NCBI RefSeq assembly: GCF_001263335.1
Contig: NZ_LGVW01000012.1
Coordinates: forward strand, 62,001-126,000
From: Dichelobacter nodosus
Lineage (GTDB): Bacteria > Pseudomonadota > Gammaproteobacteria > Cardiobacteriales > Cardiobacteriaceae
Direction of reading: 5' to 3'
Length of the DNA: 64,000 bases
Part shown: positions 1 to 33,858 of the stretch, one piece after another
Layout: each line of letters starts with the position of its first letter
Numbering within the stretch: position 1 is the first letter of the stretch
Made by a program: the position numbers and the translations under genes
The notes under the pieces: generated by a model
The model's database searches: none
What the model saw: the letters and a program-made list of their open reading frames with translations, nothing else
What the model was told of the DNA's origin: nothing

Positions 1-1446
1 ACCGCACGCAATCCGTTTGGTTCAATTGGCGGTATTTTGGAACATTGTTTTGATGAAACTTATATCCGCAAATTAGTCGCTGAAAAAAATGCCGAAAAAG
101 CCAAAGCAAAACGTCCGATTCGTTTGGCAGTCATTCAATTAGGAACTTACGACGGTACTATTTATAACGCACGCTATGTAATTGATAAAATTGGTCATTT
201 ATGTGACTACATTTTATTTGACTCTGCTTGGGTGGGTTATGAACAATTCATTCCGATGATGAAGGATTGCAGCCCGTTATTATTAGAACTTGGACCCGAT
301 GATCCTGGTGTTTTGGTAACACAATCTGTGCACAAACAACAAGCTGGTTTTTCTCAAGCCTCTCAAGTACACAAAAAAGACGCCCACATCAAAGGACAAG
401 ATCGTTATGTTAATCATAAACGTTTGAATAACGCATTTATGATGCATGCTTCAACTTCTCCTTTCTATCCGATTTTTGCTTCTCTCGACGTAAACGCAAA
501 AATGCATGAAGGCGGCGCCGGACTTGAAATTTGGAAAGATTGCGTAGAAGTGACCATTGAAGCTCGGAAAGCAATTTTAAAGAATTGTAAATACATTCGA
601 CCAATGGTTCCGCCCGTTGTTAACGGTAAAAAATGGGAAGATGGCGATACCGCGAAAATGGCGCAAGATATTTCTTACTTTGCCTTTGAGCCGGGCGCCA
701 ATTGGCACTCTTTCGAAGGGTACGGAAAAGGTCAATACTTCATCGATCCCTGCAAATTCTTGTTAACAACACCGGGTATTAACGTTGAAACTGGAAAATA
801 TGAAGATTTCGGTATCCACGCAAATATTTTAGCCAACTATTTACGTGAAAACGGCATTGTTCCAGAAAAATGCGACTTAAATACCATTTTATTCCTGATG
901 ACGCCGGCAGAAACCAAAACCAAGATGGACGATTTAGTTGCTCAATTAATCCGCTTTGAACAATTAATTGAAGCAAATGTGCCAATGCAAGACGTATTGC
1001 CAAGCATTTATTATGCCAATATTGAAAAATATAAAGGCTACCGTATTCGTCAACTTTGCCAAGAAATGCATGATTTCTACAAAGAAAGAAAAGTCAGCGA
1101 ATTGCAAAAACGTTTGTTCTTGAAAGACTATTTACCAGAATACGTCATGACTCCTCAGGAAGCGAACTTTGCTTTTGTACGCGGTGAAGGCGAATTGGTC
1201 GCATTAAGTGATGCGGTAGGACGTATGGCTCTAGAAGGTTCTTTACCTTATCCACCGGGTGTTATTTGTGTACAACCTGGCGAAAGATGGTCTGAAACCG
1301 CGCAAAAATACTTCTTAGCACTTGAAGAAGGTATTAATAAATTGCCTGGTTTTGCGCCAGAAATTCAAGGCGTCTATCTTGTTACTCAAGAAGATGGAAC
1401 GAAAAAAGCATACGGCTATGTTTTAAAATCTGAATTAGATAAATAA
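1..1446 (+). CDS. speF: Ornithine decarboxylase, inducible type (5' end outside window)
   Basis: PLP-dependent decarboxylase converting ornithine to putrescine and CO2, consuming a proton (cytoplasmic acid response, polyamine supply). The reading frame is open from base 1, so the N-terminal part (response-regulator-like wing domain and start of the PLP domain) is missing. About 481 residues are seen, against roughly 730 in the family. The PLP-binding lysine lies in the S-x-H-K-Q-Q-A-G-F motif, with its codon at 334-336. The C-terminal small domain is complete to the TAA. Arginine and lysine decarboxylases share the fold; ornithine specificity is inferred from the adjacent potE, 73 bp downstream and probably co-transcribed. 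Confidence 0.93.
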   Translation, partial: TARNPFGSIGGILEHCFDETYIRKLVAEKNAEKAKAKRPIRLAVIQLGTYDGTIYNARYVIDKIGHLCDYILFDSAWVGYEQFIPMMKDCSPLLLELGPDDPGVLVTQSVHKQQAGFSQASQVHKKDAHIKGQDRYVNHKRLNNAFMMHASTSPFYPIFASLDVNAKMHEGGAGLEIWKDCVEVTIEARKAILKNCKYIRPMVPPVVNGKKWEDGDTAKMAQDISYFAFEPGANWHSFEGYGKGQYFIDPCKFLLTTPGINVETGKYEDFGIHANILANYLRENGIVPEKCDLNTILFLMTPAETKTKMDDLVAQLIRFEQLIEANVPMQDVLPSIYYANIEKYKGYRIRQLCQEMHDFYKERKVSELQKRLFLKDYLPEYVMTPQEANFAFVRGEGELVALSDAVGRMALEGSLPYPPGVICVQPGERWSETAQKYFLALEEGINKLPGFAPEIQGVYLVTQEDGTKKAYGYVLKSELDK

Positions 1447-1519
1447 CTTTCTATATGCTCGTAAATAGGCAAGTGTAAGGCATTATGCTTGCCTATCTAG
1501 TTTAAGGAGAATACTCAAA

Positions 1520-2839
1520 ATGAGCAGCAGCACAAATAAAATGAGTGTGTTACAGTTAACGATCTTAACTGCCGTTAACATGATGGGTTCTGGAATTATT
1601 ATGCTTCCTACAAAATTGGCAGAAGTCGGATCGCTTTCAATTGTATCTTGGTTAATCACTGCCCTTGGTTCTATGGCACTGGCTTATGCTTTTGCTAAAT
1701 GTGGTATGTATAGCCGAAAAGGTGGTGGTATGGGCGGTTTTGCCGAATATTCATTCGGTAAAGCGGGCAACTTTATGGCGAACTATACCTATGGCGTTTC
1801 TTTATTGATTGCTAATATCGCTATTGCTATTTCAGCAGTCGGCTATGGCGCTGCTTTCTTAAATGCACAATTAACGCCAGTTAGCACTGCCCTTTTCACA
1901 ATTGCTGTTTTATGGATTGCAACGGTATTGAATTTTGGTGGAGCAAAATTAACAGGTCGTATATCTAGCTTTACCGTATGGGGTGTTATTGCGCCTGTAA
2001 TTGTTATTTCTACTGCCGGTTGGTATTTCTTCTCTGGTGATTTGTACACTCAAAACTGGAATATTCATAATTTGCCTTTTGGTGAAGCTGCAACCAGTTC
2101 TATTGCCATGACTTTGTGGGCATTTTTAGGTCTTGAATCAGCTTGTGCCAATGCGGACGCTGTTGAAAATCCTGAAAAAAATGTACCGATAGCGGTACTT
2201 GGTGGAACATTAGGTGTTGCTGCCATTTATATCGTATCAACTAATATCATGTTTGGTATTGTTCCTGCAGCTAATTTGGCAGAGAGCTCTGCGCCCTTTG
2301 GTATGGTCTTTTCCTCAATGTTTAACCCTTCTATCGGTAAACTTGTGATGGGATTGATGGTGTTATCATGCTTTGGTTCTCTTTTGGGTTGGCAATTTAC
2401 TATCGCTAACGTTTTCAAAGGATCCTCCGACGAAGGTTATTTCCCAGCTATATTTAGTAAAGTTACTGCAAAAAATGCCCCAGTAGTTGGAATGATTGTA
2501 ATTACTGCTACTCAATCATTGATGAGTTTGATGACAATTAGTCCAACCTTGAGTAAGCAATTTGAAGCTTTGGTTAATTTGGCAGTAGTTACAAATATTA
2601 TTCCTTATTTGTTATCAATGGGCGCCGCAATCGTTATTTTGAAAGCTGCACAACGTGGTGGTAAAGAATTAACTATTACAACGATATTAGCTACTGTTGG
2701 TTCAATTTACAGCTTGTATGCCTTATATGCTTCTGGTTTCGAAGCAATGACCTATGGTTCTATTGTGACTTTTGCCGGTTGGACTTTATACGGATTTATT
2801 TCCGATAAATTTGACTTAGCAAGCAATAAAAAACCATAA
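1520..2839 (+). CDS. potE: Putrescine-ornithine antiporter
   Basis: Inner-membrane APC-family antiporter exchanging cytoplasmic putrescine for external ornithine, the partner of SpeF. The 439 residues contain about 12 hydrophobic segments, and the N-terminus carries the APC signature (N-M-M-G-S-G-I-I-M-L-P, about residues 15-25). A good ribosome site (AAGGAG, about 1504) precedes the ATG. Length and the speF-potE order match the family closely. The operon ends at the hairpin at 2891-2925. Confidence 0.93.
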   Translation: MSSSTNKMSVLQLTILTAVNMMGSGIIMLPTKLAEVGSLSIVSWLITALGSMALAYAFAKCGMYSRKGGGMGGFAEYSFGKAGNFMANYTYGVSLLIANIAIAISAVGYGAAFLNAQLTPVSTALFTIAVLWIATVLNFGGAKLTGRISSFTVWGVIAPVIVISTAGWYFFSGDLYTQNWNIHNLPFGEAATSSIAMTLWAFLGLESACANADAVENPEKNVPIAVLGGTLGVAAIYIVSTNIMFGIVPAANLAESSAPFGMVFSSMFNPSIGKLVMGLMVLSCFGSLLGWQFTIANVFKGSSDEGYFPAIFSKVTAKNAPVVGMIVITATQSLMSLMTISPTLSKQFEALVNLAVVTNIIPYLLSMGAAIVILKAAQRGGKELTITTILATVGSIYSLYALYASGFEAMTYGSIVTFAGWTLYGFISDKFDLASNKKP

Positions 2840-2890
2840 ATGACAGTAAATCGTATTTGGTTTCTTTTGTAGCAGTTACTTTGCTATATA

Positions 2891-2925
2891 AAAAGGCTCT
2901 ATCCTATGATAGAGCCTTTTTTAGG
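2891..2925 (+). terminator. Intrinsic terminator after potE
   Basis: A 13-bp perfect stem (arms 2891-2903 and 2908-2920) with loop CTAT, followed by a T run. It is about 50 bp after the potE stop and ends the speF-potE transcript. Confidence 0.85.
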
Positions 2926-3065
2926 GGAAATACTTTTAAAACCGAAAAACCGCATTTTTACGGTATTTTTAATGTCTGTCGGTCGGGTAAAGAAATACTC
3001 TGAAACGAGTTTGAAAATGCTTGAGATAATTTAAATGCATGAAGCATTTAAAAGATACAAAAAAA

Positions 3066-3142
3066 TGGCCCGCCCGAAGGGATTTGAACCCCTGACCTCA
3101 GCCTCCGGAGGGCTGCGCTCTATCCATCTGAGCTACGGGCGG
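3066..3142 (-). tRNA. tRNA-Arg (anticodon CCG)
   Basis: 77 nt including encoded CCA. The cloverleaf reads on the minus strand: acceptor CCGCCCG/CGGGCGG, discriminator G, anticodon stem CAGCC/GGCTG with loop CTCCGGA. It decodes CGG. A sigma70 promoter lies directly upstream (3153-3181). Confidence 0.96.
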
Positions 3143-3152
3143 AAAGAAGCAA

Positions 3153-3181
3153 ATTATACGCGATAAGAAGAAAAACTACAA
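3153..3181 (-). promoter_or_regulatory. Sigma70 promoter of tRNA-Arg(CCG)
   Basis: On the minus strand, -35 TTGTAG (3176-3181), 17-nt spacer, perfect -10 TATAAT (3153-3158), 10 nt before the mature tRNA 5' end. Confidence 0.8.
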
Positions 3182-3304
3182 TTCTTATTGTCTTAAAATG
3201 AAATATGCACACGGATAAAAAATCATAAAACCACAACGATGAAATATCCATTGGGCGATAGGCTAACCTATAATGTCCGCTTCTTTTATCATAAAAATCA
3301 GATT

Positions 3305-4333
3305 ATGAGCGTAGATATCAACATTTTAGCAATCGAATCCTCATGCGATGAAAGCGGCGTAGCGATTTATAATCCCGCGCGCGGCGTACTCGCCAATCAA
3401 GTATTTAGTCAGATTGATTTACACCGCGTCTTTGGCGGCGTCGTTCCAGAATTAGCTGCCCGCGATCATTTAAAACGTTTTCCCGTATTAATGAACCAAG
3501 CGTTAACGCAAGCAAAACTAAATCTATCCGCCATCGACGTCATCGCCTACACATCTGGCCCGGGTTTGCTCGGCGCTTTAATGACGGGCGCCACTTTTGC
3601 GCACAGCCTCGCCTTTGCCATTCGGCGTCCCGTGCTCAAAATTCACCACATGGAAGGACATCTACTTTCTCCATTTCTGGCGCCATTAAAACCTGAATTC
3701 CCTTTTATTGCCTTACTCGTCTCAGGCGGGCATACGCAATTGTTATCAGTAAAAGCCGTTGGAGATTATGAAATTTTGGGACAAACTTTAGACGATGCCG
3801 TTGGTGAAGCCTTTGATAAAATGGCAAAAATAATGGGACTTCCTTATCCTGGCGGTCCCGAATTAGCAGCGCTTGCAAAAAATGGTGATGAACAACGTTT
3901 TGTGATGCCGCGCCCCATGATTAACCGTCCCGATTTAGATTTTAGCTTTTCGGGACTCAAAACCCACGTCCGCTTATTAATTGCCGAACAAAATAACGAT
4001 CCTCAAACGCGCGCCGATATTGCAGCCAGTTTTCAAAAAACCGTGGTAGAAACATTGCTCATCAAATGCCGTCGTGCGTGGAAAAAAACGGGTTACCGTG
4101 ATTTAGTCGTCTCCGGCGGCGTATCCGCCAATCAAGCGTTGCGCGCCGCGTTACAAAAAAACGCCGATGAACACAAAAAACGCGTCTTTTTTCCGCCATT
4201 AACGCTTTGTGGTGATAACGCTTTGATGATCGCGCATGCCGCATCATTTCGTTTACAAGAGGCGCGGATAGATGATGACGTGATTGATGTGACCGCGCGC
4301 TGGGAACTGTCGCGTTTATCAACGCCGTTATAA
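3305..4333 (+). CDS. tsaD: tRNA N6-adenosine threonylcarbamoyltransferase
   Basis: Catalytic subunit that transfers the threonylcarbamoyl group to A37 of ANN-decoding tRNAs, working with TsaB/TsaE on the adenylate made by TsaC. The 342 residues show the ASKHA fold: E-S-S-C-D-E near the start, the metal-binding H-x-E-G-H motif (His115 and His119), and G-G-V-S-A-N and G-D-N-A near the end. The ATG at 3305 is chosen over an in-frame start at 3239 because homologues begin just before the I-L-A-I-E-S-S strand. Its stop overlaps the convergent relA stop by 6 bp. Confidence 0.96.
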   Translation: MSVDINILAIESSCDESGVAIYNPARGVLANQVFSQIDLHRVFGGVVPELAARDHLKRFPVLMNQALTQAKLNLSAIDVIAYTSGPGLLGALMTGATFAHSLAFAIRRPVLKIHHMEGHLLSPFLAPLKPEFPFIALLVSGGHTQLLSVKAVGDYEILGQTLDDAVGEAFDKMAKIMGLPYPGGPELAALAKNGDEQRFVMPRPMINRPDLDFSFSGLKTHVRLLIAEQNNDPQTRADIAASFQKTVVETLLIKCRRAWKKTGYRDLVVSGGVSANQALRAALQKNADEHKKRVFFPPLTLCGDNALMIAHAASFRLQEARIDDDVIDVTARWELSRLSTPL

Positions 4334-6472
4334 GCGCCGAACTTCTAAAACGCCTTTTACTTGGCTTAATCGATCCATAATCCGCGACAATTGCGCCATA
4401 TCCGCGATTTCAAGAGTAAATTTTCCTTCGAGTTGCTCGCGCACATTGTGTTCCATCGCAACGTGCAAAATGCCGATGTGATCATTGGAAAAAACCTGAC
4501 TCATATCGCGCAAAATATGGGGACGATCATCGGCGATAATGCCGAGATTGATCGAGAAAACGCCTTGATTTTCGCTGGTCCAATGAACAGCAATCATGCG
4601 ATCGGGGTGTTGTCTGCCTAAATGGCGCACATTAGCGCAATCGCTGCGGTGAATATTAATGCCGTGACCGCGGGTAATAAATCCCGTAACCGCGCACGGC
4701 GGAATCGGTTTGCAGCATGTAGCAAAATTGATCAAAACATCGCTGATGCCTTCCACTTCAATTTGCTGACTTTTCGGTCGGTTAACGGTTTTGATGGGAA
4801 TTTTTGCCAAACGCTCGTTAAGCGTTAATTTTTCGGGTTGTTGTCCGTGTTGCGCTAAAAACTCGTGCACCACCGCCAAAACGCCAATATCACCAAAACC
4901 AATGCCGGAAAGTAAATCATCTTCACCGTGCAAACCAAACGCGGCGGCAAGTTGCGCCAAATCGTTTTCATTGTGCTGGAGATTAAGACGTTTGAGTTCG
5001 CGCGTGAGCATTTCGCGTCCCAATTCAATGGCTTTTTCTCCGTGAAGTTTTTTGAAATAACTGCGCACTTTTGCTTTTGCCCGCGCACTTTGCAAATAAC
5101 CTAAATGTTCGGAAATCCAATCAAGGCTGGGTTTGGCTTCTTTTTGCGTGAGAATTTCAACGGTATCGCCATTTTTTAATGCCGTGGTTAACGGAACAAT
5201 GGCGCCGTTGATTTTAGCGCCGCGGCAACGGTGCCCAAGCTGCGTGTGAATGTGATACGCAAAATCAAGCGGCGTCGCGCCTTCGGGCAAATCAATCACC
5301 ATTCCTTCGGGAGAAACGGCATAAACGCGGTCACGAAATGCTTCATTACGAAACTGATCTAAAACCACATCGCCGCGACCAATATCGCCGGTACCGCTTA
5401 ATAAACGGCGTAACCATTCAATTTGCTCCTCAAATTGTCGGGAATGTCGCGCGCCTTTTTCTTTATATTTCCAATGCGCGGCAACGCCCAATTCGGCGTG
5501 CTCATGCATTGCCGTGGTGCGGATTTGTACTTCAATAATGCGGTTTTCAGGGCCAATCAGCGTGCAATGCAAAGATTGATAACCGTTAGCTTTGGGATTG
5601 GCAATATAATCATCAAATTCTTCTGGCTTTGGTTGCCACAGCGTATTTACCACGCTTAAAGCTTCATAACATTGCCGCTCGGTTTCTACTTCAATACGAA
5701 CCGCGCGGATATCATTCACTTGTTCAAAACGGAGATTTTTCCGTTTCATTTTCAAATAAATACTGTTGATATGCTTAATGCGTCCGTAAATATGCCTGAT
5801 GCGGACACCCGCATTTTTCAAAGCGTATTCCAAATAAGCAATCACGCGATGAATATAACGTTCGCGGTCAACGCGGCGCTCTTCCAAAGCGGCAACAATT
5901 TCTTGATAAATATCGGGCTCGAGAATGCGCAGCGCATTATCTTCCAATTCGGATTTTAATTGCGCAATACCTAAACGATTGGCAAGCGGCGCAAATAAAT
6001 CACGGGTTTGCAACGCAAGAATTTGTTGTTCTTGCGGCGGGTATTGATGCACCAAACGCATAATGACGACTTGCAGCGCCAATTTTAAAATCACCGCGCG
6101 CATATCGCTTGCCATTGCCAGCAGCATTTTGCGCAATTGTTCAATATCGCTGTTGTCGCGTTCGTGCAGGCGGTCAATTAAACTTAAACTGTCCAATCCT
6201 TGAAGCAGCGCCACCACATCATTGCCGCAATGTTGCGCAACAATATTTTTATCCAGTTCTTTTTCTTGCCACGCCCAAACGAGTAATCCCGCCGAAACGA
6301 GCGTCGCATCACTTTTAATATCCACCAACAAGCGGCACAAAATTTCATTTCGTGCCTCAATGCCGGTTGATGTTGTGGTTGCTAAATCATAAGCGCGTTC
6401 AATAAGCCCGCGCATTTGGGTATCAGGATAAATGTCCTGACCGGGTAACCAATGTGCGCGGGAAGTGGTCAT
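4328..6472 (-). CDS. relA: GTP pyrophosphokinase ((p)ppGpp synthetase I)
   Basis: Ribosome-associated stringent-response synthetase. Domains in order: degenerate HD hydrolase (about 1-180), synthetase (about 215-345), TGS (about 385-445), helical region, zinc-finger-like C-C segment near residue 600, C-terminal ACT. The hydrolase HD motif is replaced (W-A-W at 65-67), and the synthetase carries E-F-D-D-Y (285-289), typical of monofunctional RelA, where SpoT has R-x-K-D. 714 residues is near the usual 740. The start overlaps the pepN stop (ATGA, 6469-6472), implying translational coupling. A separate SpoT hydrolase is expected elsewhere. Confidence 0.92.
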   Translation of the reverse strand: MTTSRAHWLPGQDIYPDTQMRGLIERAYDLATTTSTGIEARNEILCRLLVDIKSDATLVSAGLLVWAWQEKELDKNIVAQHCGNDVVALLQGLDSLSLIDRLHERDNSDIEQLRKMLLAMASDMRAVILKLALQVVIMRLVHQYPPQEQQILALQTRDLFAPLANRLGIAQLKSELEDNALRILEPDIYQEIVAALEERRVDRERYIHRVIAYLEYALKNAGVRIRHIYGRIKHINSIYLKMKRKNLRFEQVNDIRAVRIEVETERQCYEALSVVNTLWQPKPEEFDDYIANPKANGYQSLHCTLIGPENRIIEVQIRTTAMHEHAELGVAAHWKYKEKGARHSRQFEEQIEWLRRLLSGTGDIGRGDVVLDQFRNEAFRDRVYAVSPEGMVIDLPEGATPLDFAYHIHTQLGHRCRGAKINGAIVPLTTALKNGDTVEILTQKEAKPSLDWISEHLGYLQSARAKAKVRSYFKKLHGEKAIELGREMLTRELKRLNLQHNENDLAQLAAAFGLHGEDDLLSGIGFGDIGVLAVVHEFLAQHGQQPEKLTLNERLAKIPIKTVNRPKSQQIEVEGISDVLINFATCCKPIPPCAVTGFITRGHGINIHRSDCANVRHLGRQHPDRMIAVHWTSENQGVFSINLGIIADDRPHILRDMSQVFSNDHIGILHVAMEHNVREQLEGKFTLEIADMAQLSRIMDRLSQVKGVLEVRRL

Positions 6473-31230: not shown

Positions 31231-32139
31231 TTACTTTATTTTGGGATCATTTGCGCCGTTTGACGCATGATTTTTTTGCGCTCTGGGGTGTGCGCGGTCG
31301 TACACTTTCGATAATTGTTGAAAATCTAAAAAAGTATAAATTTGCGTGGTGGAAATGCGTTGATGCCCTAATAAATCTTGCACTGCGCGAATATCGCCGC
31401 AAGCTTGCAACATATGTCCGGCAAAACTATGGCGCAACATATGCGGCGTAATATGGCGATTGGGCAGGCGGCTTTGCGCGTAACGATGCAAAATATATTC
31501 CACCGACCGCGGGTGAATACGTCGCCCCTGATTAGATACAAACAACGCCTTTTCTTCGGGCGCCGCGATTTGCGCGCGGACGTTCAACCATTTTGATAAC
31601 GCCATTTTGGCATGCGTGCCGATAAAAATACGCCGTTGATAACCGCCTTTTCCCGTGATAATCAATTCATCGGGCAACCGCGCACAATCGCGCCAATTAA
31701 TCGCGATCAATTCGGCAAGACGCAAACCGGCAGAATAGGCTAATTCGAATAATGCATGATTACGCAACGTTAGCGGTTCTTCGCTGTTCGGCGGCGCCAG
31801 CAAAATCGTTATTTCATCGATTGATAGCGTTTTGGGTAGCGTTTTTTTGCGAATTTTAGGAATTTGCAACGCCATTGCCGGATTATCCAAACGTTGCCGC
31901 GTTTGTTTCAACCACGAAAAATAAGTGCGCAGCGCCGCACGGTGGCGGTTGAGTGTGATCGGCGCAATGCGTTTTCGGCGCTGATGATTAAGATAACTTT
32001 GCAAAGCATTCGCTTTTTGCTGTTCGAGTTCACCGTGAAAATATCGTTGCGCTTGATTGAGTGAATAACGGTAAGTCGTGCAGGTTTGTGGAGAAAGTCC
32101 GCGTTCGTATTGGAGCGCGTGTAAAAACGCTTCAATCAT
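31231..32139 (-). CDS. xerC: Tyrosine recombinase XerC
   Basis: Site-specific recombinase that, with XerD, resolves chromosome dimers at dif. 302 residues: N-terminal SAM-like core-binding domain (about 1-85) and catalytic domain with Arg140, Lys164, His233-x-x-Arg236, His259 and nucleophile Tyr268, all present. The ATG at 32139 is chosen because it overlaps the dapF stop (ATGA). The dapF-xerC order matches gammaproteobacteria, favouring XerC over XerD or an integrase. Confidence 0.93.
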
Positions 32140-32972
32140 AGAATTTGCCCGTGGTAAACCGCCGTGGCGCTGCCCGTCATAAAAAGCGGTTCTTTTTCTC
32201 CTGCCCAATCAATAATTAAGGAACCGCCACGCAAATCAACGTGCACCGTTTGCGCTAAATCACCACGCGCAATGCCGACGGAAACTGCCGCGCACGCGCC
32301 CGTTCCGCAAGCTAAAGTTTCGCCCACGCCGCGTTCAAAAACGCGCAGGCGAATATGTTCTCGATTAATGATTTGCATAAACCCCACGTTAACGCGTTGC
32401 GGAAATAATGGGTGTTGTTGCAATGCGCTGCCGATCGCAGTAACTGCTGCCGTTTCCACGTCATCAACGCATATCACCGCGTGCGGATTGCCCATTGAAA
32501 CAATGCCGCATTCAAAATGCCCTGCAGCCAGCGACAACGGTTGAGCCAGTGCGCTTGTTTGCAGCGTGGTAAAAGGTGAAAAATCGGGCACGCCCATTTG
32601 AACGCGAAACAGTTCACTCCCATTTTGAACGCCGCAATAATCAATGATGATGGTTCTTTTTTGTGTTTGCACCACGGCAGGACGCGTAAAATCAAATAAT
32701 CCGTTATCGCGAATATATTTCCCCAAACACCGCGCACCGTTGCCGCAATGTTCTACTTCGCTTCCGTCCGCGTTAAAGATACGGTAGGAAAAATCGGCAG
32801 CGCTGCTTTTGGGCGGTTCGAGCAACAAAAGTTGATCAAAACCAATGCCGCAATTGCGATGCGCCAGCGCGCTGATGTCATCTTTCGTCCAAGAAAAAGG
32901 CAGATGCAGGCAATTTAAAACAACGAAATCATTGCCCAAGCCGTGCATTTTGCTAAAAATTTTGGGTTGCAT
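32136..32972 (-). CDS. dapF: Diaminopimelate epimerase
   Basis: Converts LL- to meso-diaminopimelate for lysine and peptidoglycan synthesis, by a two-cysteine mechanism without cofactor. 278 residues with Cys76 (E-H-C-G-N-G-A-R) and Cys222 (L-A-C-G-T-G-A) in the expected places. Coupled to xerC by a 4-bp overlap; the lysozyme-inhibitor gene is 7 bp upstream, so the three may share a transcript. Confidence 0.96.
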
Positions 32973-32979
32973 GAATTAA

Positions 32980-33858
32980 TTATCGGCGGCAATCAGAAGC
33001 AAGCGGAATGCCGGTTTGTCCATCTTGACGAATCAGCGCGGCAACGTGGCGTTTGCTTTCGTGGGCAAAGAGTACGTATTGACCATTAGTATAAGCGGTA
33101 TAACCTTGACGGCTGTCGGCGGCGTTGAGCACTAAATTTTTACCTTGCAAGTCAACTTCCACCACATCATTGGGCATAAAATTAACCGTTAACGTACCGC
33201 TGCCATTAGCGCATACAAAAACATTATTATTGCTGCTTGTTTGTTGAGCGGGTTGCGCAGCCGGCATAACAGGAATAGGTTCTGCAGCAGGCGCTTCTTT
33301 CATCACGGTTACTTCGGGTTTTGCGGCAACAGGCGCTGGCATAACTGGCGCTGCTTGTGTTATCGGTTGCAGCGTTTGTGCGGAAGCGGAACCGCCGGAA
33401 ATCAAAGCAAATTTAACGTGATAGGGATAAGCTTTGCGGCTCGCAGGCAAATTGCGGCGGTTATTGACGATGCGCAATTCGTAATCACCGCTGACGGGAA
33501 GGACTTGATGATTGCCAAATTTCATGCCTAATTCTGGGCGAAAAATCGCAAATTCAAAAGCAGAAGAACCGCGATAATCGGTTACGCGGATCACATCGCC
33601 GGCGTTGCCCGAAAAACGGTAAACGTCCATGCCGAGCCCAACGATTTTTCCGCGCAATTGTGCGCTGCCGTCGGCATTTAAGGACATTGATTTAACTGCA
33701 ATACGATTGCGCATTGCGGCAGCGCGCGGTGTCATTAAAGCCGTATTTTCCGGCAATTCTTGTAATTCATTGGCATACTGCTGGGCGATTTCTTGAGCGA
33801 AAGTTGTCAGTGAAGTGCTCGCAAAGCCGAGTAGCATGACCATTGGTAATAAACGCAT
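32980..33858 (-). CDS. Predicted dual lysozyme inhibitor: PliG-like plus MliC-like domains
   Basis: 292 residues with a signal peptide (about 1-21, T-F-A cleavage). Residues about 66-152 resemble PliG, the periplasmic inhibitor of goose-type lysozyme (G-K-I-x-G, D-V-Y-R-F, G-D-V-I-R-V, P-V-S-G-D-Y-E-L-R-I). An Ala/Pro-rich linker (about 158-208) leads to an MliC/PliC-like domain (about 213-292) with paired Cys216 and Cys290, Y-T-N-G-Q-Y-V-L-F and a following lysine. Both assignments come from remembered family patterns; the conserved MliC serine is not clearly present. It may shield the wall from host lysozymes. No lipobox, so soluble periplasmic. Confidence 0.68.
   Translation of the reverse strand: MRLLPMVMLLGFASTSLTTFAQEIAQQYANELQELPENTALMTPRAAAMRNRIAVKSMSLNADGSAQLRGKIVGLGMDVYRFSGNAGDVIRVTDYRGSSAFEFAIFRPELGMKFGNHQVLPVSGDYELRIVNNRRNLPASRKAYPYHVKFALISGGSASAQTLQPITQAAPVMPAPVAAKPEVTVMKEAPAAEPIPVMPAAQPAQQTSSNNNVFVCANGSGTLTVNFMPNDVVEVDLQGKNLVLNAADSRQGYTAYTNGQYVLFAHESKRHVAALIRQDGQTGIPLASDCRR

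Follow-up and report, generated by a model that had tools for sequence, protein, structure and literature searches.

A Fusion of PliG-Fold and MliC/ACP-Fold Domains in Dichelobacter nodosus: A Probable Two-Headed Muramidase Inhibitor

Introduction

To our knowledge, lysozyme inhibitors have so far been known as families of separate proteins, each with a single fold. A gene of Dichelobacter nodosus, the agent of footrot in ruminants such as sheep, encodes a secreted product in which two inhibitor-like halves are joined by an Ala/Pro-rich linker, and this locus raises the question of what each half is and what their union does. A literature search found no published description of a PliG–MliC fusion. 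The gene lies in a window (the whole stretch of DNA analyzed) of 64,000 nucleotides with a G+C content of ~44%, in a genome of 1.45 Mb, both values being usual for this species. A preliminary description, made from the sequence alone, proposed that the protein pairs an inhibitor of g-type lysozyme with one of c-type lysozyme, blocks both classes in the host, and would suit a mucosal or skin colonist. The guess of a skin colonist proved right: both dn-acp primer sites published for D. nodosus (PMC6624275) are found in the genome as exact matches, 693 nt apart, so that dn-acp is present. A 16S primer for D. nodosus gave no match. Here, we analyze the two halves, their distribution in relatives, and the genomic surroundings, and we weigh the possible functions of the protein.

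Gene and Protein Architecture

The features of the locus, together with related gene islands in other genomes, are collected in Table 1. An assembly artefact or frameshift was considered as the origin of the fusion and rejected, as the frame is single and intact and the architecture recurs in independent genomes. The signal peptide, read from the sequence, lacks a lipobox cysteine, and the protein should therefore be soluble in the periplasm or exported. It has only two cysteines, Cys216 and Cys290, predicted to form a disulphide between strands β1 and β8; an equivalent bond has been described (PMC5507604). A search of NCBIfam with the protein gave no useful match.

Table 1. Features of the fusion locus and MliC/ACP islands of Cardiobacteriaceae.
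Feature	Position	Strand	Description
Two-domain protein gene	32980..33858	-	292 aa, ATG start, TAA stop, single intact frame
Signal peptide	33796..33858	-	Residues 1–21, read from sequence; probable cleavage after A21
Subfamily-specific extension	33700..33765	-	Residues 32–53; columns invariant across all seven members of the close subfamily
PliG-fold domain	33400..33705	-	Residues 52–153; profile and structural match to PliG
Ala/Pro-rich linker	33238..33399	-	Residues 154–207; from sequence and model
MliC/ACP-fold domain	32983..33237	-	Residues 208–292, eight strands; Pfam, structural match, family profile
Cys216	33211..33213	-	First half of predicted β1–β8 disulphide; invariant in fusion relatives
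Cys290	32989..32991	-	Second half of predicted β1–β8 disulphide; invariant in fusion relatives
dapF	32136..32972	-	Downstream of fusion gene, same strand, 7-nt gap
MliC/ACP islands	G001:C1:436726-437977		
	G003:C2:2582532-2584049		
	G006:C29:35324-36939		
	G007:C116:158-1347		

Structural comparisons used a template-free AF2 model, in which pLDDT is about 70–88 over most of the N half and about 65–76 in the C half; the linker is disordered, with values under 40 over most of its length. Sequence, profiles, and model agree with the signal peptide, two domains, Ala/Pro linker, and cysteine pair of the preliminary description. Its domain limits (66–152 and 213–292) were slightly narrow, the evidence supporting ~52–153 and ~208–292.

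The N-Terminal Half Has the PliG Fold

Searching the PDB with the unmodified protein (phmmer) retrieved PliG from E. coli and Salmonella over residues 63–149 (E 0.0037–0.016). A profile built from the seven members of the close subfamily listed four PliG entries (6.6e-11, 7.0e-11, 1.4e-10, and 1.4e-4), with the next match at 0.16 and no PPC chain, while a broader one, made from 13 PliG-like domains, reached PliG at 1.8e-19 and collagenase PPC domains at only 0.35. Along the same lines, residues 52–153 of the model superimpose on PliG structures 4dy5, 4dxz, 4dy3, and 4dzg with Z scores of 13.2, 12.7, 12.6, and 12.2, respectively, whereas the nearest PPC domain reaches 9.2. The PliG identity given to this half in the preliminary description is thus borne out by both profile and predicted structure.

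A generic PPC domain was also considered as the label for this half and rejected, PliG being better in both profile and fold, with the caveat that the PPC fold includes PliG as a branch. The Pfam PPC family (PF04151) has no match in the fusion protein up to E 10. E. coli PliG itself passes the cut-off of that family (42.6 vs 25.9 bits), which places PliG as a branch of the PPC fold, and the contrast between "generic PPC-like" and PliG is therefore one of degree rather than a clean alternative. Weaker resemblances of the modeled N half, with Z about 9, are to PPC domains that bind collagen and to a toxin domain that binds claudin.

The conserved core of the domain, LPxSGxYExR (L120–R129), is invariant or nearly so throughout the aligned PliG-like set. 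The inhibitory surface has fared differently. We take Y47, R115, and R119 of E. coli PliG, reportedly identified by Leysen et al. in 2012/2013, to be its critical residues, and the E. coli sequence agrees with this numbering. Their aligned equivalents here are L75, R134, and P138, i.e., one of the three residues is kept, and one loop is ~10 residues shorter than its E. coli counterpart. The N half also has an extension of its own (residues 32–53) with the pattern L..P..T..M...AA..R..I, common to all seven aligned members of the close subfamily and missing from E. coli PliG; the model predicts a helix at residues 44–51 within it. Given the single retained residue, the shorter loop, and the invariant extension, the N half may bind a muramidase different from that of PliG.

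The C-Terminal Half Has the MliC/ACP Fold

The Pfam MliC family (PF09864) scores 20.3 bits (E 5.6e-4) against the isolated C half and 17.2 bits against the whole protein, both below its cut-off of 22, with the signal covering residues 214–253. The Pfam Nm-ACP family (PF24574) has no match in the D. nodosus fusion protein. Structurally, the C half of the model is closest to Neisseria ACP (Z 11.2 and 10.2), the best match being 5my7 (Nm-ACP; Z 11.2, rmsd 2.0 over 80 residues), followed by Salmonella PliC (10.1), Brucella PliC (9.9), E. coli YdhA/MliC and Brucella PhiA (both 9.6), and Pseudomonas aeruginosa MliC (9.2). The MliC/PliC identity proposed for this half was confirmed by structure (Z 9.2–10.1), with Pfam MliC just short of its cut-off.

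By sequence, the C half is nearer to MliC: it scores 18.7 bits against a family MliC profile and 2.0 bits against a family ACP profile, the latter built with two short (mis-extracted) ACP rows included. Similarly, it falls beside canonical MliC domains in a C-domain tree that leaves aside three short extractions from one genome (G007), two of them ACP domains and the third an MliC domain, whereas the Cardiobacterium C domains group with ACP.

The lysozyme-binding motifs of MliC are SxSGAxY and YxxxTKG (PMC5507604), and both are lost in the C half, which has S249-R-Q-G-Y-T-A-Y and Y261-V-L-F-A-H-E instead. Their loss does not exclude activity, because Nm-ACP lacks both motifs yet inhibits human and hen lysozyme (PMC5507604).

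Distribution and Origin of the Fusion

The order of PliG-like domain, linker, and ACP/MliC-like domain is also found in Cardiobacterium hominis, C. valvarum, and one saliva MAG, the Cardiobacterium proteins having a longer linker of similar type. The C domain of the C. hominis protein passes the Pfam cut-offs of both ACP (30.3 vs 27.5) and MliC (23 vs 22). In another genus from saliva, an open frame of 356–367 aa encodes a pair of PliG-like domains plus one ACP/MliC-like domain, and in an unrelated gammaproteobacterium (G309, locus L059; G309:C32:1494-2456) a PliG-like domain is fused to PliI (34.4 bits vs a cut-off of 27). The PliG-like domain stands alone in other relatives and is joined to NlpE in further ones. 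In a class-wide sample, 13 of 370 genomes, G309 among them, have PliG-like domains, several of them weak and PPC-like, and no MliC protein sampled across the class outside Cardiobacteriaceae carries a PliG domain. Scans of DNA for relatives with the bare protein gave no matches, the relatives being too diverged.

Two variants deserve separate mention. The proteins at L010 and L011 (G004 and G005) combine a PliG-like domain with an NlpE N-terminal domain (78.9 bits in G005) and have no evident lipobox; their PliG-like domain is nearer to E. coli PliG and keeps TRNDARK. At L019 and L020, both in saliva MAGs, a His/Gly-rich tail takes the place of the second domain after a single PliG-like domain, and this tail could possibly bind metal.

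The two halves have diverged to different degrees, D. nodosus and Cardiobacterium sharing 24–26% identity in the C half and 43–47% in the N half. An N-domain tree places the D. nodosus domain with PliG-only proteins. As the C-domain and N-domain trees both split D. nodosus from Cardiobacterium, separate origins of their fusions are suggested; an AU test does not reject a single clade of fusions (p 0.237).

Genomic Context

The preliminary description set the gene next to dapF, a wall-precursor gene. The adjacency is real, and the two genes are probably co-transcribed; dapF in turn overlaps xerC. Its functional weight did not survive comparison, since no close relative has it: dapF is absent from the loci compared in six relatives, and the sole shared neighbor is yigZ, in common with a roe-deer MAG. 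An explanation by dapF operon logic was rejected on this ground. E. coli pliG is under zinc (Zur) control (PMC4219657); an unscored reading by eye of the region upstream of the fusion gene saw no Zur-type palindrome.

Elsewhere in the D. nodosus genome, three lytic transglycosylase genes are followed by a gene for an MliC-family lipoprotein (L073, G000:C11:83500-89500, at 1371-5868), and slt is paired with an MliC-like lipoprotein gene at L050, L046, L043, L044, L053, and L099 as well. This slt-linked subtype of MliC has lost SASGxxY and TKG, shows conservation of an F-x-S/T-D/N-G stretch, and may act as a dedicated inhibitor or partner of Slt. Four Cardiobacteriaceae genomes have an MliC-family gene divergent to an ACP gene (mostly with tandem domains), forming a small lysozyme-inhibitor island (Table 1). 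D. nodosus has both an MliC-family gene and an ACP gene, which lie apart.

Comparison with Known Inhibitors

The N half shares with PliG (E. coli YcgK; 4dy3, 4g9s) the fold over 99 residues (Z 12.6), the signal peptide and periplasmic location, and the core, LPxSGxYELR in E. coli. It differs from E. coli PliG in sequence (25% identity), in the changed positions of Y47 and R119, in the shorter loop, and in having both an additional conserved N-terminal extension and a fused second domain. The C half has the eight-strand barrel and β1–β8 disulphide of MliC/PliC (E. coli YdhA, P. aeruginosa MliC, Salmonella PliC); unlike these, the fusion protein is non-lipidated, without SxSGAxY and YxxxTKG, and under the Pfam cut-off. 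Nm-ACP, its top structural match, is likewise non-lipidated and has an inhibitor fold without MliC motifs, although by sequence the C half is nearer to MliC than to ACP.

Within the same genome, Dn-ACP (DNO_0725) also has two inhibitor domains, but consists of the ACP domain twice, whereas the partners in the fusion protein come from two different families. Purified Dn-ACP inhibits hen lysozyme, at lower doses, and was put in the same class as Nm-ACP by its authors (PMC6624275). The PliG–PliI protein of G309 likewise combines a PliG-like domain with another inhibitor family, but its partner is an i-type inhibitor and its lineage is unrelated.

Possible Functions

We favor, as fairly probable, the reading that the fusion protein is a periplasmic two-headed muramidase inhibitor. 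Secreted by D. nodosus into the periplasm as a soluble protein, it would place each head in the substrate cleft of an enzyme that cuts peptidoglycan. The target of the C head would be c-type lysozyme, inhibited independently of the MliC motifs as by ACP proteins, and that of the N head a GH23-fold enzyme, either host g-type lysozyme or an Slt-type lytic transglycosylase of the cell itself; the Slt family and g-type lysozyme share the GH23 fold class. For both heads, solved inhibitor structures rank as top matches, before any other fold, and the recurrent joining of PliG-like to other inhibitor domains would fit a shared task. The conserved LPxSGxYExR core and the inhibition measured for Dn-ACP and Nm-ACP also speak for it. 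Counting against it, the known binding residues of MliC and PliG are largely lost, PliG-like domains without an inhibitor partner exist, alone or with NlpE, and the Pfam MliC score of the C half is sub-threshold. Inhibition of some muramidase by one head or both is, in our view, likely. Inhibition of both c- and g-type lysozymes of the host is less likely than not: the preliminary interpretation was sound on the two domain identities, but the MliC motifs are gone and one of the three critical PliG residues is kept.

The same lost residues could instead mark a decayed fusion in which one half, most likely the C half, is active and the other stabilizes or spaces it. The far greater divergence of the C half between D. 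nodosus and Cardiobacterium also speaks for decay, but the N half, as the better conserved part with its own invariant extension, argues for retained function, and we regard decay as unlikely. A role as an adhesin or surface binder, the N half attaching to host matrix like a PPC or collagen-binding domain and the C half acting as an ACP-type adhesin, would suit life on ruminant hoof skin and the resemblance of the N half to collagen-binding and claudin-binding domains; Neisseria ACP, moreover, was originally described as an adhesin (PMC5507604). This reading is improbable: PliG structures lie three Z units above PPC domains (12.2–13.2 vs 9.2), the close-subfamily profile matches PliG and no PPC chain, and the protein is without a surface anchor.

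A housekeeping role, in which the protein restrains the cell's own Slt lytic transglycosylases against autolysis and inhibition of host lysozyme is secondary or absent, has more in its favor and is still, in our judgment, rather unlikely. The D. nodosus genome has five SLT-domain matches, and a motif-less MliC-like lipoprotein gene lies directly after slt in D. nodosus, no more than 1.5 kb from it in five further Cardiobacteriaceae genomes, and about 1.5 kb from it in C. hominis. This conserved pairing ties a similar inhibitor fold to the cell's own transglycosylase and makes control of own enzymes a serious rival, although the gene concerned differs from the fusion gene, which itself is near no slt gene in relatives. 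Brucella PhiA, named a peptidoglycan hydrolase inhibitor (PMC12354254), is among the matches of the C half (Z 9.6). The position directly upstream of dapF would also suit a housekeeping role, but is not conserved, and related proteins have been measured as inhibitors of host-type lysozyme.

Going beyond the two-headed inhibitor itself, a tentative wider reading is that multi-specific lysozyme inhibitors arose through repeated, separate fusions of PliG-like domains and would hit two muramidase classes through contact residues that single-domain inhibitors do not use. The PliG-like domain would have been joined to MliC in Dichelobacter, to ACP in Cardiobacterium, to PliI in G309, and, as a tandem pair, to ACP in the saliva genus.

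Conclusions

The fusion architecture appears to be new, while the kinds of inhibitor that it joins are already known. It unites the folds of g-type and c-type inhibitors in one natural protein, which occurs both in a pathogen of animals and in bacteria of the human mouth and of endocarditis. Dn-ACP, whose fold is related, has already been put forward as a vaccine candidate against footrot, and a second two-domain protein in D. nodosus is therefore of practical interest. The fusion also makes it possible to test directly if multi-specific inhibitors exist in bacteria or if such folds serve mainly to govern the cell's own wall-cutting enzymes.
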